A DNA stretch of 35,488 nt, taken from Chloroflexota bacterium (GTDB taxonomy: Bacteria > Chloroflexota > Dormibacteria > CF-121). The notes beneath the pieces were generated by a model. It made no database searches and had not been told where the DNA came from. It was given only the letters and a program-made list of their open reading frames with translations. Position numbers and translations under genes: made by a program. Location: positions 1 to 35,488 of the forward strand of contig VBDZ01000161.1 in NCBI GenBank assembly GCA_005881215.1, given 5' to 3'. This document shows positions 17,861 to 33,021 of this stretch, piece after piece. How positions within the stretch are numbered: the stretch's first letter is position 1; each line of letters starts with the position of its first letter.

Positions 17861-18325
17861 TCAGTACTCGGCCCTCATGGATGAGCCCGCCGACATCACG
17901 AACTGGGCGCCAGTCAGGTTTGAGATCATCCCGGTCATCGGCGCGAACAGGTAGGTGACGCGCACGGTCACCTCGTTGTTTCCGGTGGTTCGGTTCGGGC
18001 TCACCCAGATGAAGCCGGTGTTCGGCGTGTGGGGGAGGGAAGGCGAAGTGCACCCCCACTGCAAGCATGGGTCCTCCGTCAGCACCATTCCCCCGCCTCC
18101 GATCTTGGCCAGGGTGGCATTGATGATCACGGTGTCTGGATAGGTGCTGGCATAGTTGCTGCGCAACACCAGCTGGCGGGCGCCTTCGTGGGCAGCCTCG
18201 GCGATATTGATGTAAACAGCGATCGCACGCCCGAAGTCGAAAATACCCATCACCAGGAGAAAGAGCAGACCAGCGAGAAGCGAAAACTCCACCATCGCCT
18301 GACCGCGGGATTTGTGCCGCTTCAT
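17861..18325 (-). CDS. TadE-like pilus-assembly protein
   Basis: A 154-residue minor-pilin-like protein with the TadE N-terminus (MKRHKSRGQAMVEFSLLAG, Gly-Gln-Ala-Met-Val-Glu-Phe), one membrane helix to about residue 32, and IAEAAHEGARQLV. The C-terminal domain is exported and has one cysteine pair (EDPCLQWGC). The ATG at 18325 overlaps the TGA of the preceding TadE gene (TGATG). A longer upstream frame exists but is antisense-like noise inside the previous gene. It acts with its two neighbours as minor components of a Tad/Flp pilus. Confidence 0.88.
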   Translation of the reverse strand: MKRHKSRGQAMVEFSLLAGLLFLLVMGIFDFGRAIAVYINIAEAAHEGARQLVLRSNYASTYPDTVIINATLAKIGGGGMVLTEDPCLQWGCTSPSLPHTPNTGFIWVSPNRTTGNNEVTVRVTYLFAPMTGMISNLTGAQFVMSAGSSMRAEY

Positions 18326-18843
18326 CAGTAGTTCGTCCGCATTTGCACAGAGACGCTCATGTGGATGGGGTTCCCCACCAGCTGCTGCATGAGTGGCGTG
18401 TAGAGCTGAAAGTCGTATTTCACGTTGACGGTCACGTAGTAGTTGGTTGTTGAGCCGCCGAGCCAATCGCTTACGCGGTTGCTTCCATCCGGGCATCCGA
18501 ATGTGGACTGGGATGAATCGTGGGGTGGGCAGATGGTGACGGACTTCGGCGAGATGCCACTGTAGGTCAGCTCGGCAATCACCGCGTTGCTGATGTTCGT
18601 GTCGTTCTGCACCGGGCATGTTAGATAACTGGGTCCTGTGCAGGCGGGCGTGTCGGGACCCGTATAGATGTTGAGGATCGCGGCGCGAGCCCCTTCCCGG
18701 GCAGCGTTGGTCACCGCCACCTGGAAGTAGTAGGCGCGGCCGAAGTCGACCAGGCCAAACGTCAGGAAGGCGAGGACCGGCAGCACCATGGCCATTTCGA
18801 CCAGCGACTGCCCGGCGCGGCCACGCCAGCGGTTGGTTTTCAT
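18325..18843 (-). CDS. TadE-like pilus-assembly protein
   Basis: A 172-residue protein with a TadE signature (GRAGQSLVEMAMVLPVLAF, with the conserved Glu near +5 of the hydrophobic helix), then FGRAYYFQVAVTNAAREGAR. The exported part has four cysteines (PACTGP, LTCPV, ICPPH, FGCPD) that could form two disulfides, unlike its neighbour. It is first in a three-gene minus-strand unit. Its upstream region (18844-19030) is about 190 bases long and contains several potential hairpins. The dyad at 19015-19028 could serve this gene as well as the RNA gene on the other strand. Confidence 0.88.
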   Translation of the reverse strand: MKTNRWRGRAGQSLVEMAMVLPVLAFLTFGLVDFGRAYYFQVAVTNAAREGARAAILNIYTGPDTPACTGPSYLTCPVQNDTNISNAVIAELTYSGISPKSVTICPPHDSSQSTFGCPDGSNRVSDWLGGSTTNYYVTVNVKYDFQLYTPLMQQLVGNPIHMSVSVQMRTNY

Positions 18844-19008: not shown

Positions 19009-19058
19009 CGTTCGGGAACGAATGTTCCGTATTGCGGCAATTAGGACCGGCCTATAAA
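19009..19058 (+). promoter_or_regulatory. promoter and dyad operator of structured RNA copy 1
   Basis: CGTTCGGGAAC (19009-19019), then GAAC-GAAT-GTTC (19016-19027), four bases, then TTGCGG (19032-19037, -35 candidate) and TATAAA (19053-19058, -10 candidate). The predicted start is at about 19065, just before the first helix of the RNA. The block GAAC-N4-GTTY-N4-TTGCGG recurs at exactly the same spacing upstream of copy 2. The dyad resembles the Bacillus/actinobacterial LexA box (CGAACRNRYGTTYC) at all positions but the first. Confidence 0.55.
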
Positions 19059-19065
19059 GTCACCC

Positions 19066-19325
19066 CTGCGACCTGTCAGAAAGCCAGTTAGAGAAGGAAA
19101 CGACTCTAGTCGGTCGCTGACGAGGGGACCGCAAGGTTCCCACTCTCGGATCGTGAGGTCCGAGGGCCCGGCCCGCAAGGGCTGGGGAGTCGGTTGTCGC
19201 AAGACGACCGGTTCTGTCAGTGACGAAGGTCTAGCTCGCAAGGGCCGGACTGGGCGGCGGGATGAAGGCTCGCTGGGTAACACCGGTGAGTTGTAAACCG
19301 TAACGACGGGTCGCATTCTTTTTTC
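19066..19325 (+). ncRNA. unrecognised structured RNA, copy 1 (long form)
   Basis: Closed by a 10-bp helix, GCGACCTGTC (19068-19077) with GACGGGTCGC (19305-19314), one G-U. Inside are: a hairpin TTAGAG/CTCTAG with loop AAGGAAACGA (19088-19109); a 9-bp helix GTCGCTGAC/GTCAGTGAC (19113-19121 and 19216-19224) enclosing four hairpins of 7-8 bp, each with a GNRA loop (19124-19141, 19145-19164, 19167-19186, 19191-19210); a 10-bp hairpin with one mismatch and loop GCAA (19228-19251); and CTCGCTGG/CCGGTGAG with loop GTAACA (19269-19290). A T-run (19319-19324) follows. It does not match RNase P, tmRNA, SRP, 6S or common riboswitches as I know them. It could be a leader of the lipoprotein gene, but copy 2 argues against that. 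Confidence 0.8.
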
Positions 19326-19349
19326 GGGCCGGCGCCGTTGCATCAAGGA

Positions 19350-20945: not shown

Positions 20946-21770
20946 TTACGACAGGAATTCGAGCAGCAGCCGGTTCAGGCGATCGGGTTGGTCGAGCGGT
21001 ACCCAGTGGGAGCCCTCGAAACGCTCATAGCGCCATTGACCTTCGATAGCCTGCGCTGATCGCGTCATCGCTTCTTCCGTCAGGTACAGATCGCCGGTGC
21101 TCCAGATCCCGAGCGTGTTGGCCTTGACCGCCGGCAGCCGCGGTCCGCCGGTCCGGCCGAGGATTGCCTGAACCGGGAGATTCGCCCGGTACCAGTTGAG
21201 CGCCGGAGTGAGTGCGCCCGGTTCGGAAAGAGTCTTGACGTACGCATCGGTGTCCTTCGCACCGGCGAGAAACAGCCGAAACAGGTACCAATCGTCCCGC
21301 TGGATCAACTCCTCGGCGGTGCCCTCGAACAAAAACAGCAGGCGGTACCAGCCTTTCTGGAGTTCCTCGAGCGACGGCTTCGCGCCGGTTCCAGGAGCCC
21401 CGACGGAGATGGCAACGAGGCGATCGACGCGCTCGGGAACTAACGCCGCCAGCAGCCAGGCCACGCCGGCGCTCCAGTCGTGCCCGACGACGTGCGCCCG
21501 CTCGATTCGCAGCGCGTCGAGAATGCCAGTTACGTCTCGGACGATGGTGGAGAGGCGGTAGTCTGCGACGTTCGGTGGCTTGCTGCTTATTCCACGTCCA
21601 CGCATGTCCGGCACGATCGTGCGAAAGCCGTTCTTTACGAGCGCGGGCACCTGGTTGCGCCAGAGATCACCCGTATCGGGAAAGCCGTGCAGCAGGATGA
21701 CCGGCGTGCCCGACCCCTCATCCCGAACGTGGAACTGAAGCCCGTTGGCCTCGACCAACTCGAGCTCCAT
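20946..21770 (-). CDS. alpha/beta hydrolase, epoxide hydrolase-like
   Basis: A 274-residue alpha/beta-hydrolase. Counting from MELELVEANG, it has the oxyanion motif HGFPD (28-32) and the nucleophile elbow GHDWSAG with Asp98. HGFP plus an aspartate nucleophile is the pattern of epoxide hydrolases and haloalkane dehalogenases. The catalytic histidine is in EGSHWVPLDQPDRL near the C-terminus. A lid domain lies between about 120 and 205. The ATG at 21770 is chosen because the upstream frame has no family match. It is divergent from paaA with only 16 bases between the two start codons. A role in clearing epoxides linked to the phenylacetyl-CoA epoxidase is plausible but unproven. Confidence 0.85.
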   Translation of the reverse strand: MELELVEANGLQFHVRDEGSGTPVILLHGFPDTGDLWRNQVPALVKNGFRTIVPDMRGRGISSKPPNVADYRLSTIVRDVTGILDALRIERAHVVGHDWSAGVAWLLAALVPERVDRLVAISVGAPGTGAKPSLEELQKGWYRLLFLFEGTAEELIQRDDWYLFRLFLAGAKDTDAYVKTLSEPGALTPALNWYRANLPVQAILGRTGGPRLPAVKANTLGIWSTGDLYLTEEAMTRSAQAIEGQWRYERFEGSHWVPLDQPDRLNRLLLEFLS

Positions 21771-21786
21771 CTTAGAATCAAACCGG

Positions 21787-22713
21787 ATGGAGCCCACCAA
21801 CTCCGGGACGTTCGAGACCCTGCTCAAGCGCGGGGAGCTGATCGAGTCGACCTCCGAGATGACCCCGGATTACCTGCGCGAGCTGAAGCACACGTTGATC
21901 GTCTCGGGCGACACGGAACTGATCTCGGCCCCCGCCTATTACCTGGCCGCCAAAAAGGCGCCCAGCGTCAATGCGTTCATGACCGGCATCGCCATCATCC
22001 AGGACGAGCTGGCCCACGCCCACATCGCCTTCCACATCCTCGAAGAGCTGGGCGAGAGCCAGGAGGCGCTGATCTTCAAGCGCGACCCCAAGGCGTTTCG
22101 CTATCCATACGCCTTCGACGTCCCGCTGGAAAGCTGGACCGAGCTGGTTGTAGCCAACGCGATGTACGACCAGGCTGGCTTCTGCCTGCTGGGTGACATC
22201 CACGAGCAGTGCTCCTACGGGCCCTGGAAACGGGGACTCGTGAAAGTCATGGCCGAGGAGAACTTTCACCTGCGCAACGGCCGCAACTGGTCGAAACGCA
22301 TCAGCCAGGCCGGCGGCGCCGCCAAAGAGGAACTGCAGCGCGCCATCGACTGGATGTTTCCCCTGACGGTCGAGTGGTTCGGCCTCCCGGACAACCTCAA
22401 GCAGCACAGTGCCCAGCTGGACTATCGGTTGAAAGGCCTGACCAACGACCAGTTGCGGCAGCAGTGGCTCTCGACCGTGGTGCCGTTCATGGAATCGATC
22501 GGCATCCGGGTGCCGGCCCACCAGGAAAACAGCCATTTCGTCCTGGACTATCCATTCCCGTGCACCTTCGACGCGGACGCGAAGCGGTGGGACTTCAAGG
22601 ATCCCTGCACCTGGGATGATGTGCTGGCTCGCTGGCGCGCCCGCGGCCCGCGGAACGCCGAGATGGTGGCCCTGTTCCAGGAGAGCTTCGCCAAGTTCCA
22701 GGTGCAGGTATGA
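21787..22713 (+). CDS. paaA: phenylacetyl-CoA epoxidase catalytic subunit PaaA
   Basis: A 308-residue ferritin-like di-iron protein. PaaA with PaaC oxidises the CoA-activated aromatic ring to a 1,2-epoxide. Iron-ligand motifs are visible: DELAHAHIAFHILEE (Glu74-x-x-His77) and MAEENFHLRNGRNW (Glu157/158, His161), with earlier Glu44 in SGDTELISAP. The C-terminal PTVEWFG-like region reads PLTVEWFGLPDN. The ATG at 21787 fits the family start. No ribosome site is obvious in the 16-base divergent gap. Its stop overlaps the next start (ATGA), starting a chain of overlapping genes paaA-paaD(N)-paaB-paaC-paaD(C). No reductase gene paaE is in the window. Confidence 0.92.
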   Translation: MEPTNSGTFETLLKRGELIESTSEMTPDYLRELKHTLIVSGDTELISAPAYYLAAKKAPSVNAFMTGIAIIQDELAHAHIAFHILEELGESQEALIFKRDPKAFRYPYAFDVPLESWTELVVANAMYDQAGFCLLGDIHEQCSYGPWKRGLVKVMAEENFHLRNGRNWSKRISQAGGAAKEELQRAIDWMFPLTVEWFGLPDNLKQHSAQLDYRLKGLTNDQLRQQWLSTVVPFMESIGIRVPAHQENSHFVLDYPFPCTFDADAKRWDFKDPCTWDDVLARWRARGPRNAEMVALFQESFAKFQVQV

Positions 22714-23063
22714 GCCCCCATCCTACCCTCCCCCGCAAGCGGGGGAGGGAAATTTCGCTCCAGGCCCGGGTCTGGTCGGCGCTGGCCGAGATCAACGACC
22801 CCGAGATGCCGGTCAGCCTGGTCGACCTCGGCATCGTCTACGGCATCGACGTGGCGGAGGGGATCGTGCGGATCCGGTTGACGTTCACCGCCATGGGCTG
22901 CCCGGCGAGCGACCTGCTCGTGGGGGATATCCGTGAGCGGATGCTCAGAGAACCCGGCGTCGATGACGTCGTCATCGAGGTGGTCTGGGATCCGCCCTGG
23001 TCGTCGGACCGGCTGACGCCGGAGGGTCGGGAGGCGTTGCGGTCCTGGGGTCTTTCGGTCTGA
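22710..23063 (+). CDS. paaD: PaaD N-terminal half: MIP18/DUF59 domain protein
   Basis: A 117-residue protein. Residues 1-14 (MSPHPTLPRKRGRE) are encoded by the palindromic repeat. Residues from about 17 on are a MIP18/DUF59 domain with EINDPEMPVSLVDLGIVYGI, cited in part as NDPEMPVSLVDLG, and MGCPASDLL, whose cysteine is the conserved Fe-S-related residue. It ends with WDPPWSSDRLTPEGREAL, which is specific to PaaD. PaaD is an Fe-S maturation factor needed for the epoxidase. In usual PaaD (about 160 residues) a zinc-ribbon follows this domain; here the protein stops, and the ribbon is a separate gene at 23976. The ATG overlaps the paaA stop. Confidence 0.9.
   Translation: MSPHPTLPRKRGREISLQARVWSALAEINDPEMPVSLVDLGIVYGIDVAEGIVRIRLTFTAMGCPASDLLVGDIRERMLREPGVDDVVIEVVWDPPWSSDRLTPEGREALRSWGLSV
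22715..22752. repeat. palindromic GC-rich repeat (REP-like) inside paaD(N)
   Basis: A perfect palindrome, CCCTCCCCCGC-AA-GCGGGGGAGGG (22726-22749), preceded by CCCCATCCTA and followed by AAAT. It lies immediately inside the start of paaD(N) and is translated as PHPTLPRKRGRE. Confidence 0.9.
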
Positions 23064-23287
23064 TGGGGTACAGCCGGGTTCACGCGAACGTTCGCGAGTA
23101 CGACGTCTTTGCCCGCAAGGCGAGGGTCGAGCCGCTGCGCCAGGTCGGCAGCGTGGTCGCGCCGGACGACGACCTGGCGATGGCCTACGCCCGCGCCACC
23201 TACGACGAGGAGCGTTGGGTGGAGATGATGATCGTGCCCCGCGATGCGGTGATCCGGCTGTGGGCTCCGGGAGAGTCGGAGAGCTGA
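23063..23287 (+). CDS. paaB: phenylacetyl-CoA epoxidase subunit PaaB
   Basis: A 74-residue small subunit. The PaaB pattern is clear: REYDVFARKARVEPLRQVGSVVAPDDDLAMAYARATYDEE, cited in part as YDVFARK, RQVGSVVAPDDDLAMAYAR and WVEMMIVPRDAVIRLW. In the family the same places hold 'W.VF.r...G..h.hvGS.hA.D.e.Al..ARD.y.RR.e...iWVV....I'. PaaB is essential for the epoxidase complex but is not catalytic. It is shorter than the usual 90-95 residues, mainly at the ends. The ATG overlaps the paaD(N) stop (TGATG), and the next gene starts inside it. Confidence 0.85.
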   Translation: MGYSRVHANVREYDVFARKARVEPLRQVGSVVAPDDDLAMAYARATYDEERWVEMMIVPRDAVIRLWAPGESES

Positions 23288-23979
23288 GTCTCTACTCGCT
23301 CGTCAAGAGCCTCGCCGACAACAAGCAGCTGCTCGGGATGCGCTACGCGGAGTGGTGCATCGCCGCGCCCAGCCTGGAGGCGGACATCGCCGCGGCGGCC
23401 ATGGGCCTCGACGACATCGGGCACAGTCGCGTGCTGTACGGATCGCTTCGCGAGCTCGGGACGCCCGATGGGATCGACGAGAGCAGTTATGCGAACGTCC
23501 CCTATCTCGACAAACCGTGGACCGATTGGGCCCAGTTCGTGGCCGCGAATGCGGTGCTGGACAGCGCCTTCACGCTGATGATCGAGGCGCTGGCGAACGG
23601 CAACGTCGAGGTGTTGCGCAGCCGCCTCAAGAAGATGTTGCAGGAAGAGCGCTACCACTTCCTGCATGGCCGAAGCTGGATGCGGGAGGCGAAGGCCCCG
23701 CCGGCGATCGACCGGGCGTGGCGCGAGTCGCTGGAATGGATCGGTCCCGAGGGTGCGGATGTCGACGAGCTGCATCGGGACGGCCGCCTCGCCTTCGATG
23801 TCCGCGAGCTGCGCCGGCTGCTGGCCGAGCGCGTCGAGAGCACAGCGCCGCCGGCCGAGATCGATTGGGCGAAATGGGACCGGATTCGGCGGCGCACCGA
23901 GCCGGGAGGCATCGACCAGGCGACGCTCGAGATGCTGCAGGGCCTGGCGGAGAAGCGGTACATGCCGGTGAGTTCATGA
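23260..23979 (+). CDS. paaC: phenylacetyl-CoA epoxidase subunit PaaC
   Basis: A 239-residue ferritin-like subunit that pairs with PaaA. Recognisable blocks are SLADNKQLLGMRYAEWC, APSLEADIAAAAMGLDDIGHSR (cited in part as LEADIAAAAMGLDDIGH), SLRELGTP, WAQFVAANAVLDSAF, and LQEERYHFLHGRSW (Glu-x-x-x-His). Family PaaC is structural and lacks a full iron site in E. coli; here several ligand-like residues (Glu40, Asp52, His55, Glu and His in EERYHF) remain, so the iron status is open. The start is GTG 23260, overlapping paaB by 28 bases; the family homology begins at about residue 9. The stop overlaps the next gene (ATGA). Confidence 0.88.
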   Translation: MGSGRVGELSLYSLVKSLADNKQLLGMRYAEWCIAAPSLEADIAAAAMGLDDIGHSRVLYGSLRELGTPDGIDESSYANVPYLDKPWTDWAQFVAANAVLDSAFTLMIEALANGNVEVLRSRLKKMLQEERYHFLHGRSWMREAKAPPAIDRAWRESLEWIGPEGADVDELHRDGRLAFDVRELRRLLAERVESTAPPAEIDWAKWDRIRRRTEPGGIDQATLEMLQGLAEKRYMPVSS

Positions 23980-24152
23980 CCCCCCACCCTGACCCTCTCC
24001 CGCAGGGGGGAAGGGAAGATCTCGGCAAGCCGCGCTGTCCGTTCTGCCAGGCGACGAACACCGAGGTGATCTCGCTCTTCGGCAGCCAGGTGATGACGAT
24101 GCAATGCCGGTGCCGGGCGTGCGGCAGTTTCTTCGAGGCCAGTAAATACTGA
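23976..24152 (+). CDS. PaaD C-terminal zinc-ribbon as a separate 58-residue protein
   Basis: Read by eye from ATG 23976, which overlaps the paaC TGA. Residues 1-15 (MTPHPDPLPQGGRED) are encoded by the palindromic repeat. Residues 20-58 hold CPFCQATNTEVISLFGSQV, then CRCRACGSFFEASKY. This matches the C-terminal ribbon of PaaD ('CP.CgS......S.FGST.Ck....C..C.epF..fK') with the four cysteines present. It is thus the missing half of the PaaD encoded at 22710. Both halves probably act together as the maturation factor. No further gene overlaps it; a new ribosome site precedes the methyltransferase. Confidence 0.85.
   Translation: MTPHPDPLPQGGREDLGKPRCPFCQATNTEVISLFGSQVMTMQCRCRACGSFFEASKY
23980..24018. 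repeat. palindromic GC-rich repeat (REP-like), diverged, inside the ribbon gene
   Basis: CCCCCCACCCTGACCCTC followed by TCCCGCAGGGGGGAAGGGAAG. It is the same element as at 22715 but with an imperfect right arm. It begins four bases after the ATG of the ribbon gene and is translated as PHPDPLPQGGRE. Confidence 0.75.
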
Positions 24153-24177
24153 GCTGAGCGCATGGGAGGAGGGGACG

Positions 24178-25002
24178 ATGGCTGAGGGGACCGTCTTTGG
24201 GTGTTTTTCCATCGGGAGCGTGGCCGCGACCTATGACGAGATTTACGTGCCGCGGATCTTCATCCCCTGGGCGCGGCTCTTACTGGAACGGGCGGACCTA
24301 TCGCCGGGCGAATCCCTGCTCGACGTCGCGACCGGACCCGGCACCGTCGCCCGGCTGGCAGCCGAGCAGGTGGGTCCGCGGGGTCGCGTGCTCGGTACCG
24401 ATATCAGCGCCGCCATGATCGGGATCGCCCAGAAGAAGGCCATCGCCGGTGAGGCGGCGGCCATCGAGTACCTGGTCGCCCCGGCCGCCCCGCTCCCGGT
24501 GGCGGATGGGAGTTTTGACGTGGTCACCTGCCAGCAAGGGCTGCAATTCTTTCCCGATCGCCCGGCGGCGTTGAAGGAGATGCATCGCGCCCTGCGACAG
24601 GGTGGACTACTGGTCGCGGCCGTTTGGCGCGAAATCGCGCTGCAGCCGAGCTTTGCGGCCATCGATGGCGCGCTCCGGGAACGCCTCGGTCCGGACGCTG
24701 CCGAGCCCTATGGAGCGCCGTTCCGCGGACCGGGAAAGGCGCAGCTGCGCCAGGCGCTGGTTGACGCGGGCTTCAAAAATATCGCCGTCGACGAATACCG
24801 GCTGCCGCTCATCTACGAAGCCGGAATCGCGCAGGCGCTGGCGACGCTGGCCGCCTCGCCGGTGGCGACGACGGTGGCGGGGCTGACCGACGACGAGCGG
24901 GCTCGGCTGTGGGAGGCCGGCCGGCGGCGGCTCGAACCGCTGCTGGTAGACGGCGCGGTCAGCACCGAAATGGTGTCGCACCTGGCGGTAGCGACGACTT
25001 AA
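24178..25002 (+). CDS. class I SAM-dependent methyltransferase, UbiE-like
   Basis: A 274-residue methyltransferase. Motif I is LLDVATGPGTVARLA (about 48-62), motif II acidic LGTDISAAMI, and motif post-II/III is DGSFDVVTCQQGLQFFPD, cited in part as FDVVTCQQGLQFF. HRALRQGGLLVAAVW fills motif IV. This order is typical of the UbiE/COQ5-like small-molecule or ubiquinone-type group. The substrate is unknown. ATG 24178 has a very strong ribosome site (GGAGGAGGGG, about 24165-24174), so it may be translated independently of the paa genes 25 bases upstream. It ends just before structured RNA copy 2. Confidence 0.88.
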   Translation: MAEGTVFGCFSIGSVAATYDEIYVPRIFIPWARLLLERADLSPGESLLDVATGPGTVARLAAEQVGPRGRVLGTDISAAMIGIAQKKAIAGEAAAIEYLVAPAAPLPVADGSFDVVTCQQGLQFFPDRPAALKEMHRALRQGGLLVAAVWREIALQPSFAAIDGALRERLGPDAAEPYGAPFRGPGKAQLRQALVDAGFKNIAVDEYRLPLIYEAGIAQALATLAASPVATTVAGLTDDERARLWEAGRRRLEPLLVDGAVSTEMVSHLAVATT

Positions 25003-25013
25003 TAGCGATCATC

Positions 25014-25066
25014 CGTTTGCGAACCGCAGTTTGGAGTTGCGGCCCGATTAGCTTGGCCCTTACGCT
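25014..25066 (+). promoter_or_regulatory. promoter and dyad operator of structured RNA copy 2
   Basis: CGTTTGCGAAC (25014-25024), GAAC-CGCA-GTTT (25021-25032), four bases, then TTGCGG (25037-25042). These align base for base, without gaps, with 19009-19037 upstream of copy 1. ATTAG follows in both. A weak -10 candidate TACGCT (25061-25066) would give a start at about 25073, at the first base pair of the RNA. Confidence 0.5.
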
Positions 25067-25071
25067 TACGC

Positions 25072-25260
25072 CCGCGACCTGTCAGAAAGCCAGCCGATGA
25101 AGGAAACGACATCGGTAGGCCCCCGAACCCCGGGCCCGCAAGGACTCGGTTAGTACGGAGCGAAGGTCCTCTCGGAAACGGGTGGACTGGGCGGCGGTAA
25201 GGACTCGTTGGGTCACACCGGCGGGTTATCAACCGTAACGACGGGTCGCTTCAACTTTCT
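25072..25260 (+). ncRNA. unrecognised structured RNA, copy 2 (short form)
   Basis: Closing helix GCGACCTGTC (25074-25083) with GACGGGTCGC (25240-25249), identical to copy 1. Hairpin CCGATG/CATCGG (25094-25115) carries the same ten-base loop AAGGAAACGA, although every stem base but the inner pair region differs from copy 1. CCGGGCCC-GCAA-GGACTCGG (25130-25149) matches one GNRA hairpin of copy 1. GGTCCTCTCG-GAAA-CGGGTGGACT (25165-25188) matches the 10-bp hairpin, with the mismatch in the same place. CTCGTTGG-GTCACA-CCGGCGGG (25204-25225) matches the last. The three extra hairpins of copy 1 are absent. It fills the gap between two converging gene ends. Confidence 0.8.
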
Positions 25261-25309
25261 GCAGGTTCTGCCGGCTTTGCCTTCCCAAGCTCGGCAGACC
25301 TGTGCGTCG

Positions 25310-26221
25310 CTAGTTCTTGAGCTCGGTGGGGATGATCGTGCGCCTGAGCAGCTCGGTGCCGCGGAGCAGCTGGGCTTCGGCGGGAATACCGACCGGCCAG
25401 TCGGTGAGGAAGTGCTGGAGATCGTCCACGCCCTTCATCGGGTGACTGGCAAGACTGAACACGACATCCTCTTTCTGCAGTCCGGCGTGCTGAGCTGGCC
25501 CGTTGGGGTCGACATGGACGACCCGGACGCCGCTTTCCTGGTCCAGATGGTAGTAACGAGTGATGCGGCGGTGGATCGGCCACGACTCGCCGGTGATGCC
25601 CAGGTAGGAGCGGATCACCCGGCCGTCGCGGATCAGCAGGGATACCACGCGTTGGGCGGTGTTACTCGGGACGGCGAAACAGATACCCTGCGCCATGGCG
25701 ATGATGGCGGTGTTGATGCCGACCACCTGGCCCCGGGTGTCCACCAGCGGCCCACCCGAGTTGCCGGGGTTGAGCGCGGCGTCGGTCTGAATGATGTTCT
25801 CGATGGTCCGGCCGCTCTGGGCCCGCATGGTCCGGCCCAGGGCGCTTACGACGCCGGTCGTCACCGTCGACTGAAACCCAAACGGATGGCCGATCGCGAC
25901 CACCAGCTGGCCGACGCGAAGCTGCCCGGAATCGCCAAGCCGGGCATGGGGAAGGCCGGTGCCGGTCGCCCGCAAGACCGCCAGGTCCGTATGCGGATCC
26001 TTGCCGACCAGGTCCGCCTTCAGCGTCGTACCATCGCGGAGGGTGAGCTCGTACGCCTTGACCGCGCTAGCCACATGGCTGTTGGTGAGGGCGTAGCCGT
26101 CCGGCGTGATCAGCATGCCGGTGCCGACGCCGCTGACGCCGACGACCGCCGGCCCCACGGTGTCGACCACCGAAATCACCGCCCGCGAGTAGGCGTCAAG
26201 CAGCTCGAGGTCAGAGACCAT
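25310..26221 (-). CDS. HtrA/DegP-like trypsin-fold serine protease with PDZ domain
   Basis: About 303 residues. The catalytic triad is complete: His49 in LTNSHV, Asp79 in PHTDLAVL, and Ser155 in PGNSGGPLV. A single PDZ-like domain follows (YLGITGE, then GVRVVHVDPNGPAQHAGLQKEDVV, cited in part as DPNGPAQHAGLQKED). No signal peptide or membrane anchor is visible before the protease domain, which is unusual for HtrA proteins and suggests a cytoplasmic or non-classically located enzyme. I prefer ATG 26221 (VSDLELLDAYS); a TTG at 26263 would add 14 polar residues and still no anchor. It is divergent from the small gene at 26281. Confidence 0.87.
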   Translation of the reverse strand: MVSDLELLDAYSRAVISVVDTVGPAVVGVSGVGTGMLITPDGYALTNSHVASAVKAYELTLRDGTTLKADLVGKDPHTDLAVLRATGTGLPHARLGDSGQLRVGQLVVAIGHPFGFQSTVTTGVVSALGRTMRAQSGRTIENIIQTDAALNPGNSGGPLVDTRGQVVGINTAIIAMAQGICFAVPSNTAQRVVSLLIRDGRVIRSYLGITGESWPIHRRITRYYHLDQESGVRVVHVDPNGPAQHAGLQKEDVVFSLASHPMKGVDDLQHFLTDWPVGIPAEAQLLRGTELLRRTIIPTELKN

Positions 26222-26280
26222 TTGCCGGGGGTGGTACCCATTCCAGGAGTACCTAAACAACAACCTATGATTGGTTGCTG

Positions 26281-32753: not shown

Positions 32754-33021
32754 GATCGCGCTAGACGGGGAGTTAGCGGTGCCCTGTACCCGCAATCCGC
32801 TACAGCGGGGTCGAATTCCCCTTTGAGGGGTGCGCTGTCCGGAGTGGCGTTTCGTGTGACTGCGTTGATGGCCTGGTCCTGCGCGACCTGGTTCCGTGAA
32901 CCCCGTCAGGTCCGGAAGGAAGCAGCGGTAAGCGGGGTGCCGGGGGCGCCGCAGCCCACCGGGCCTGAGTGGTCCGCGTTGTGTCCCCGGGCGGCGCCAC
33001 AACGAGGAGGGGTGCGCGGTC
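32754..33021 (+). ncRNA. ffs: signal recognition particle RNA, large bacterial type with Alu domain
   Basis: About 268 nt. The 5' part carries the Alu-domain block AGCGGTGCCCTGTACCCGCA (20 bases shown, about 32774-32793), as in the Bacillus large SRP RNA. The apical domain IV hairpin has GTCAGGTCCGGAAGGAAGCA (about 32904-32923), which includes the symmetric Ffh-binding loop with GGAAGCAGC and GTCAGGTCCGG. The ends pair: GATCGCGC (32754-32761) with GCGCGGTC (33014-33021), with one G-U pair, which sets the limits. The RNA scaffolds Ffh for co-translational membrane targeting. The large form suits the predicted Gram-positive or Chloroflexota-like host. Confidence 0.95.

Follow-up and report, generated by a model that had tools for sequence, protein, structure and literature searches.

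Two homologous structured RNAs in a family of soil Chloroflexi that look like a new family of bacterial non-coding RNA

The window analyzed here is a stretch of DNA of 35,488 nucleotides from a Chloroflexota bacterium, and its intergenic DNA holds two structured RNAs that are homologous to each other, both on the + strand. The long form (19068–19314, 247 nt) lies between a tadE gene on the − strand (18325–18843) and a hypothetical ORF starting at 19338 on the + strand. The short form (25074–25249, 176 nt) follows a methyltransferase gene (24178–25002, + strand) and is convergent with an htrA-like gene (25310–26263, − strand). A paaA-paaD-paaC operon (21745–24180) lies between the two RNAs. Both RNAs are defined by their minimum free energy (MFE) fold, by covariation, and by matches to a covariance model at 168 bits for the long form and 204 bits for the short form. 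Family-wide, the loci run tad cluster, long RNA, paaA-paaD-paaC, short RNA, htrA. The genes inserted on the 3′ side of each RNA vary, over 24 bp to about 10 kb, and one genome (G016) has the long RNA inverted.

Both copies are closed by the 10-bp helix P1, GCGACCUGUC/GACGGGUCGC (19068–19077/19305–19314 in the long form, 25074–25083/25240–25249 in the short form). The sequence AGAAA lies between P1 and P2 (GCC/GGC; 19083–19085/19253–19255 and 25089–25091/25190–25192), and P2 closes a junction of the P2a hairpin, the P3 arm and P4. The stem of P2a (19088–19109 and 25093–25116) varies freely, and its loop is AAGGAAACGA, within which GGAAACGA is invariant. P4 (19228–19251 and 25165–25188) is a hairpin with a GNRA loop and a central mismatch. 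P6 (19267–19292 and 25202–25227) has the loop GUMACA and is enclosed by P5 (19257–19260/19298–19301 and 25194–25197/25233–25236), and the sequence CCGUAAC never varies. P3 of the short form (25119–25125/25156–25161) has one bulged C and carries one GNRA hairpin (25130–25149), whereas that of the long form (19113–19122/19215–19224) branches into four hairpins (19124–19141, 19143–19166, 19167–19186 and 19187–19214), all four with GNRA loops. The invariant blocks sit in the loops and junctions that the two forms have in common. Compared with dinucleotide shuffles, the MFE z-score is −8.7 for the long form and −4.1 for the short form. RNAalifold proposed pairing GCC of P2 with GGY before P3. We dropped this and prefer the GCC/GGC closure of the junction because the short P3 helix, with covarying GC and UA pairs, needs the GGY bases. 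A hammerhead-like CUGACGA in the long form was also set aside; it is not conserved, and by inspection the rest of the core is missing.

The original prediction had described a structured RNA of unknown type in two copies with compensatory base changes, and its reading of the individual elements agrees with ours. Both copies with their common closing helix are present as it described. The loop AAGGAAACGA stays the same as its stem changes from UUAGAG/CUCUAG to CCGAUG/CAUCGG; the central mismatch of the 10-bp hairpin, now P4, is A-C in one copy and U-U in the other; the pairing exchange in the stem that we label P6 and the interchange of the GNRA loops GCAA and GAAA are correctly given. Its variable arm with three extra GNRA hairpins is P3, with four hairpins against one. 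The same prediction took the covariation as strong evidence of selection on RNA structure. With two sequences that was overstated, but the family alignments, together with shuffled, slid and tree-aware controls, justify it, and the covariance-model homologues add to the support. The upstream element, the U-rich tract behind the long form, the kept gene order and the confinement to one bacterial family, all described below, go beyond that prediction.

Beyond the window copies we used full-length sequences, 17 short and 12 long. The long form has 92 pairs, with standard pairs in 99.4% of cells and 20 compensatory pairs; the short form has 59 pairs, with standard pairs in 94.7% of cells and eight compensatory pairs. 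There are 17 compensatory pairs in the combined alignment of the two forms. When the pairing partners were slid as a control, pairing fell to 29–46% and compensatory pairs to ≤7. For a tree-aware null we reconstructed changes by the Fitch method on a FastTree tree and re-placed the same substitutions on each branch in 1000 runs. In the long form we counted 22 compensatory double changes on the same branch, compared with a null mean of 1.0 and a maximum of 5, and seven pair-breaking changes, compared with a null mean of 42 and a minimum of 30; none of the 1000 runs reached either value. There are five same-branch doubles in the short form (null 0.6, reached in 1/1000 runs) and 20 in both forms together (null 1.4, 0/1000 runs). 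The covariation thus exceeds the shuffled, slid and tree-aware nulls, which supports selection on the proposed structure. Tested singly, at most three column pairs pass E < 0.05, and none outside the proposed structure. The narrow distribution of the RNAs, within one bacterial family, keeps both divergence and the power of single-pair tests low, so that support comes from the pairs collectively and not from individual ones. Since P2 and P5 do not vary, covariation says nothing about them, and we draw both as putative helices.

The RNAs are 83–97% identical between genomes, compared with 74–86% for the neighboring paaC; paaA, at 82–90%, is mostly below the RNA. Several invariant G-U pairs would become A-C mismatches on the other strand, and the RNA strand is therefore +. 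The RNAs are non-coding. The long form has no open frame on its + strand, its antisense frames are no more than partly open, and the variable columns show no 3-base periodicity (25/24/24).

One or both forms are present in all 18 genomes of the family that we examined, which span four genera of uncultivated soil Chloroflexi. BLASTN with the short form found related copies in 17/17 relatives of the same family and in none of 83 other relatives. A covariance model built from 27 sequences (alignment A2) scores intact copies at 150–204 bits and detects the RNA in 18/18 family genomes, so the homologues that the original prediction suggested seeking in related genomes do exist, in both forms across the family. 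Among the remaining 92 genomes of this class the same model had no match at a credible score, nor did it have one in 400 genomes sampled from the phylum beyond the family. With an improved structure and more permissive filters, a second model gave only chance-level matches in 40 sister genomes. Two weak matches in sister-family members were taken as chance; one (G055) appears within coding DNA, and the other (G036) retains only 66 nt. A pattern scan of 84,980 GTDB species found true members only among soil MAGs named 'Chloroflexi bacterium' (CF_xx; scaffolds 14_1009_.. and others), and pattern matches from outside the Chloroflexi were rejected as they had no covariance-model match. Two new class-level Chloroflexi lineages were reported from the Angelo grassland MAG set (Diamond et al. 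2019, PMC6784897). Our member MAGs have contig names resembling those of that set and probably belong to it. Copies that are missing within the family were traced mostly to contig ends; in G012 the upstream element of the long form lies right at a contig end. Assembly breaks in or at these genes are frequent (G006:C203, G011:C90, G012:C63, G015:C215), as they are at other highly conserved loci.

This distribution bears on whether the RNAs could be self-splicing or self-cleaving ribozymes, or RNAs of a mobile element. They have a compact fold with many GNRA loops, there are two copies in one neighborhood, and variable genes have been inserted 3′ of them, all of which would be in keeping with such an origin. 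Yet both forms are kept vertically at the same two loci in four genera, the neighboring genes scanned in the window include no reverse transcriptase, transposase or endonuclease family, and neither RNA matches an Rfam ribozyme. Collections of viral contigs, phages and plasmids gave nothing credible. Matches in IMG/VR to ACCGTAACGACGGGTC and CAGAAAGCCAGN{5,11}GGAAACGA were judged to be chance on inspection of the sequences and by the covariance model. We therefore regard a ribozyme or mobile-element RNA as very improbable.

Each RNA is preceded by a shared upstream element that was identified by pattern scan and by its recurrence in the family, GTTCGGGAACGAATGTTCCG for the long form (19010–19029, + strand) and GTTTGCGAACCGCAGTTTGG for the short form (25015–25034, + strand). 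The pattern GTTN4AACN4GTTYNG, scanned in both orientations with a reversed-pattern control, has exactly two matches in the 2.79-Mb genome to which the window belongs, and both are upstream of the RNAs. The 18 family genomes contain 41 matches, of which about 30 are at RNA loci; the reversed control gives 11, and matches away from RNA loci are about as many as this. The element of the short form is partly degenerate in the more distant genera. Downstream of the element, the aligned upstream regions have a TTGC-type −35-like hexamer, 17–18 nt, and then a TA-containing −10-like hexamer (TANNNT), at near-constant spacing. In the window the putative promoter of the long form (19032–19060, + strand), of sigma-70 type, has TTGCGG (19032–19037), a 17-nt spacer and TAAAGT (19055–19060), and that of the short form (25037–25066, + strand) has TTGCGG (25037–25042), an 18-nt spacer and TACGCT (25061–25066). 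In both RNAs the hexamers are weak matches to consensus. The predicted starts are at about 19067–19068 and about 25073–25074, i.e. at P1, and we infer that each RNA would be transcribed from its own putative promoter.

The two forms differ at the 3′ side. In the long form P1 is directly followed by a U-rich tract, ATTCTTTTTTC (19315–19325, + strand), which is a probable 3′ end or terminator and is found in every long copy read. Short forms continue with TTCAATTTT-like sequence and then a hairpin with a GCCTTCCC-type loop. In the window this is GCAGGTTCTGCCGGC-loop-GGCAGACCTGTGC with the pyrimidine-rich loop GCCTTCCC (25261–25305, + strand). The hairpin is present in 16/17 copies, with a conserved loop, and its stem covaries in two other genera. 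It is probably the 3′ end, perhaps as a terminator variant, or an extra 3′ domain, but it may also be a separate element. Generic scans at both loci found no promoter and no classical stem-loop terminator, so the promoters and 3′ ends are proposed from their conservation.

The conserved loops might suggest a base-pairing sRNA, acting on mRNAs or on the ribosomal anti-SD through the P2a loop AAGGAAACGA or the 3′-hairpin loop GCCUUCCC. The former is nearly invariant on a freely varying stem, and the latter is invariant, pyrimidine-rich and SD-complementary in character. However, the conserved blocks mostly build a compact multi-junction fold and not a single-stranded seed, the loop of P2a may itself close into a GAAA tetraloop, and neither the long form nor one of the short copies has the 3′ hairpin. 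We consider a base-pairing role to be rather unlikely.

The upstream element raises the question of LexA. In this genome two CGAACN4GTTCG boxes lie upstream of lexA, and imuA-imuB, an HRQ1-like helicase gene and an HNH/DUF222 gene are preceded by this box too. The long-form element has a match to a LexA-type box in its middle, GAACGAATGTTC (19016–19027, + strand), which corresponds to the GAACN4GTTC box of the LexA regulon. But several RNA copies have AAAC for GAAC or GTTT for GTTC, and the RNA element has a third half-site. Its center is also about 10 nt before the −35, unlike the boxes of imuA and HNH/DUF222, which lie between −35 and −10. LexA/SOS control of the RNAs is possible; a dedicated regulator other than LexA is no less likely. 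The SOS regulon with the LexA box CGAACATATGTTCG or a close relative was seen at C52 (L052), C17 (L053), C204 (L054) and C238 (L055); its members are lexA with its two boxes, imuA-imuB, the HRQ1-like DEAD/DEAH helicase and the HNH/DUF222 protein.

Given their positions, the RNAs might be cis-regulatory leaders, riboswitch- or attenuator-like, of a downstream gene. In most other family genomes the short form is indeed followed by a same-strand gene, usually for a secreted protein of about 600 aa, and a leader reading could draw on the putative promoter of the short form and the hairpin 3′ of it. That gene, however, apparently carries a promoter-like motif of its own, CTTGTTTTCCGAACC..GGCTATGGTC, and in the window it is absent: the short form faces the convergent htrA-like gene and is still fully conserved. 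The RNAs stay in place although the genes 3′ of them change in kind, distance and strand. Those 3′ of the long form are often on the opposite strand, so that no constant downstream gene and orientation is associated with it; the U-rich tract also separates it from the next sequence. We exclude a leader role for the long form and consider it unlikely for the short one, and as an account of the two RNAs it has a low probability.

Neither RNA matches a known family. With Rfam 15 at gathering level the window contains only Bacteria_large_SRP, which lies elsewhere, and a search of the two loci at E up to 10 gave nothing relevant; the suggestion in the original prediction that no known family fits is borne out. 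The models of raiA, OLE, ROOL and GOLLD have no match at either locus. The RNAs could in principle be a very divergent member of the 6S, RNase P, SRP, tmRNA or raiA class. Their size is within the raiA/6S range, and 6S RNA is undetectable by RF00013 in the whole bacterial family. Yet RF00013 is also weak or undetectable in many sister-family genomes, and 6S RNA, while a free-standing transcript of about 180 nt, as the present RNAs may also be, is a rod with a large central bubble; the present RNAs have branched junctions and GNRA hairpins. There is no match to RF00010 at either locus, and the RNase P RNA itself is on a different contig of the same genome (280 bits). The large SRP RNA too exists separately. 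Together with the absence of any relevant match at E = 10, this leaves only a very slight chance that we are looking at a disguised known class.

The two RNAs look like a new RNA family, absent from Rfam 15 and of the orphan structured bacterial ncRNA kind, because they have no known-family match, are kept in 18/18 genomes and have a near-private promoter element. The raiA-motif RNA (ModT) is a free-standing, highly structured bacterial ncRNA of about 205 nt, with no evident part in coding or base pairing (PMC12286853, PMC11706538). The present RNAs are likewise highly structured and probably free-standing. However, raiA has another architecture and occurs in >2,500 species of other phyla rather than in one Chloroflexi family, and the present RNAs have two apparently co-regulated length forms and no cmscan match to raiA. 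OLE, ROOL and GOLLD share with them many branched helices, conserved unpaired blocks and a function that is not obvious from sequence, but they are about 600–800 nt, whereas our RNAs are 176–247 nt, are not phage-linked and have no match to those models.

The structure, covariation and absence of an ORF fit a free-standing ncRNA gene. We favor, with a probability of roughly 0.55, a reading in which the two are paralogous, free-standing, trans-acting non-coding RNAs with their own promoters and a shared regulator, probably serving as RNP scaffolds or protein-sequestering RNAs. The two genes would give compact RNAs of about 250 and 180 nt, both transcribed under one dedicated regulator. In the proposed fold P1 holds the P2-closed junction (P2a with the AAGGAAACGA loop, P3 and P4) next to the P5/P6 domain, and P3 is the arm that is exchanged, a single GNRA hairpin in the short RNA being replaced by four in the long one. 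Since the loops and junctions common to both forms are invariant, we infer that AGAAA, GGAAACGA, the P6 loop with ACC, and CCGUAAC may be contact sites for a partner of both RNAs, which would most likely be a protein, and the P3 arm would tell the two versions apart. More speculatively, and with little probability, the two could be partner subunits of one new RNA-based particle, RNP or RNA-only and possibly catalytic, co-induced by a dedicated, perhaps DNA-damage-linked, regulator of only these genes.

These RNAs would add a well-supported, previously unlisted family in Chloroflexi known only through soil metagenomes, and lineage-restricted structured RNAs may be absent from Rfam where only MAGs exist. 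Two apparently co-regulated forms with a common core and one different arm are a natural experiment. The near-private promoter element offers a direct way to look for the regulator and, through it, for the condition in which the RNAs act.

Some further observations concern individual loci. The bacterial large SRP RNA of the window is at 32756–33019, with a score of 166.5 bits. Family-wide, the two RNAs flank the paaA-paaD-paaC operon, which has a zinc-ribbon PaaD tail. In the sister family f3 the paa genes occur but the RNAs do not, and a search beside paaC there gave nothing credible. In the relative G006 (L077, G006:C201) a long copy is without the entire P3 and P4 arm, between AGGTC direct repeats. 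This may be either a real deletion or an assembly collapse; the promoter and U-run of this copy are intact.
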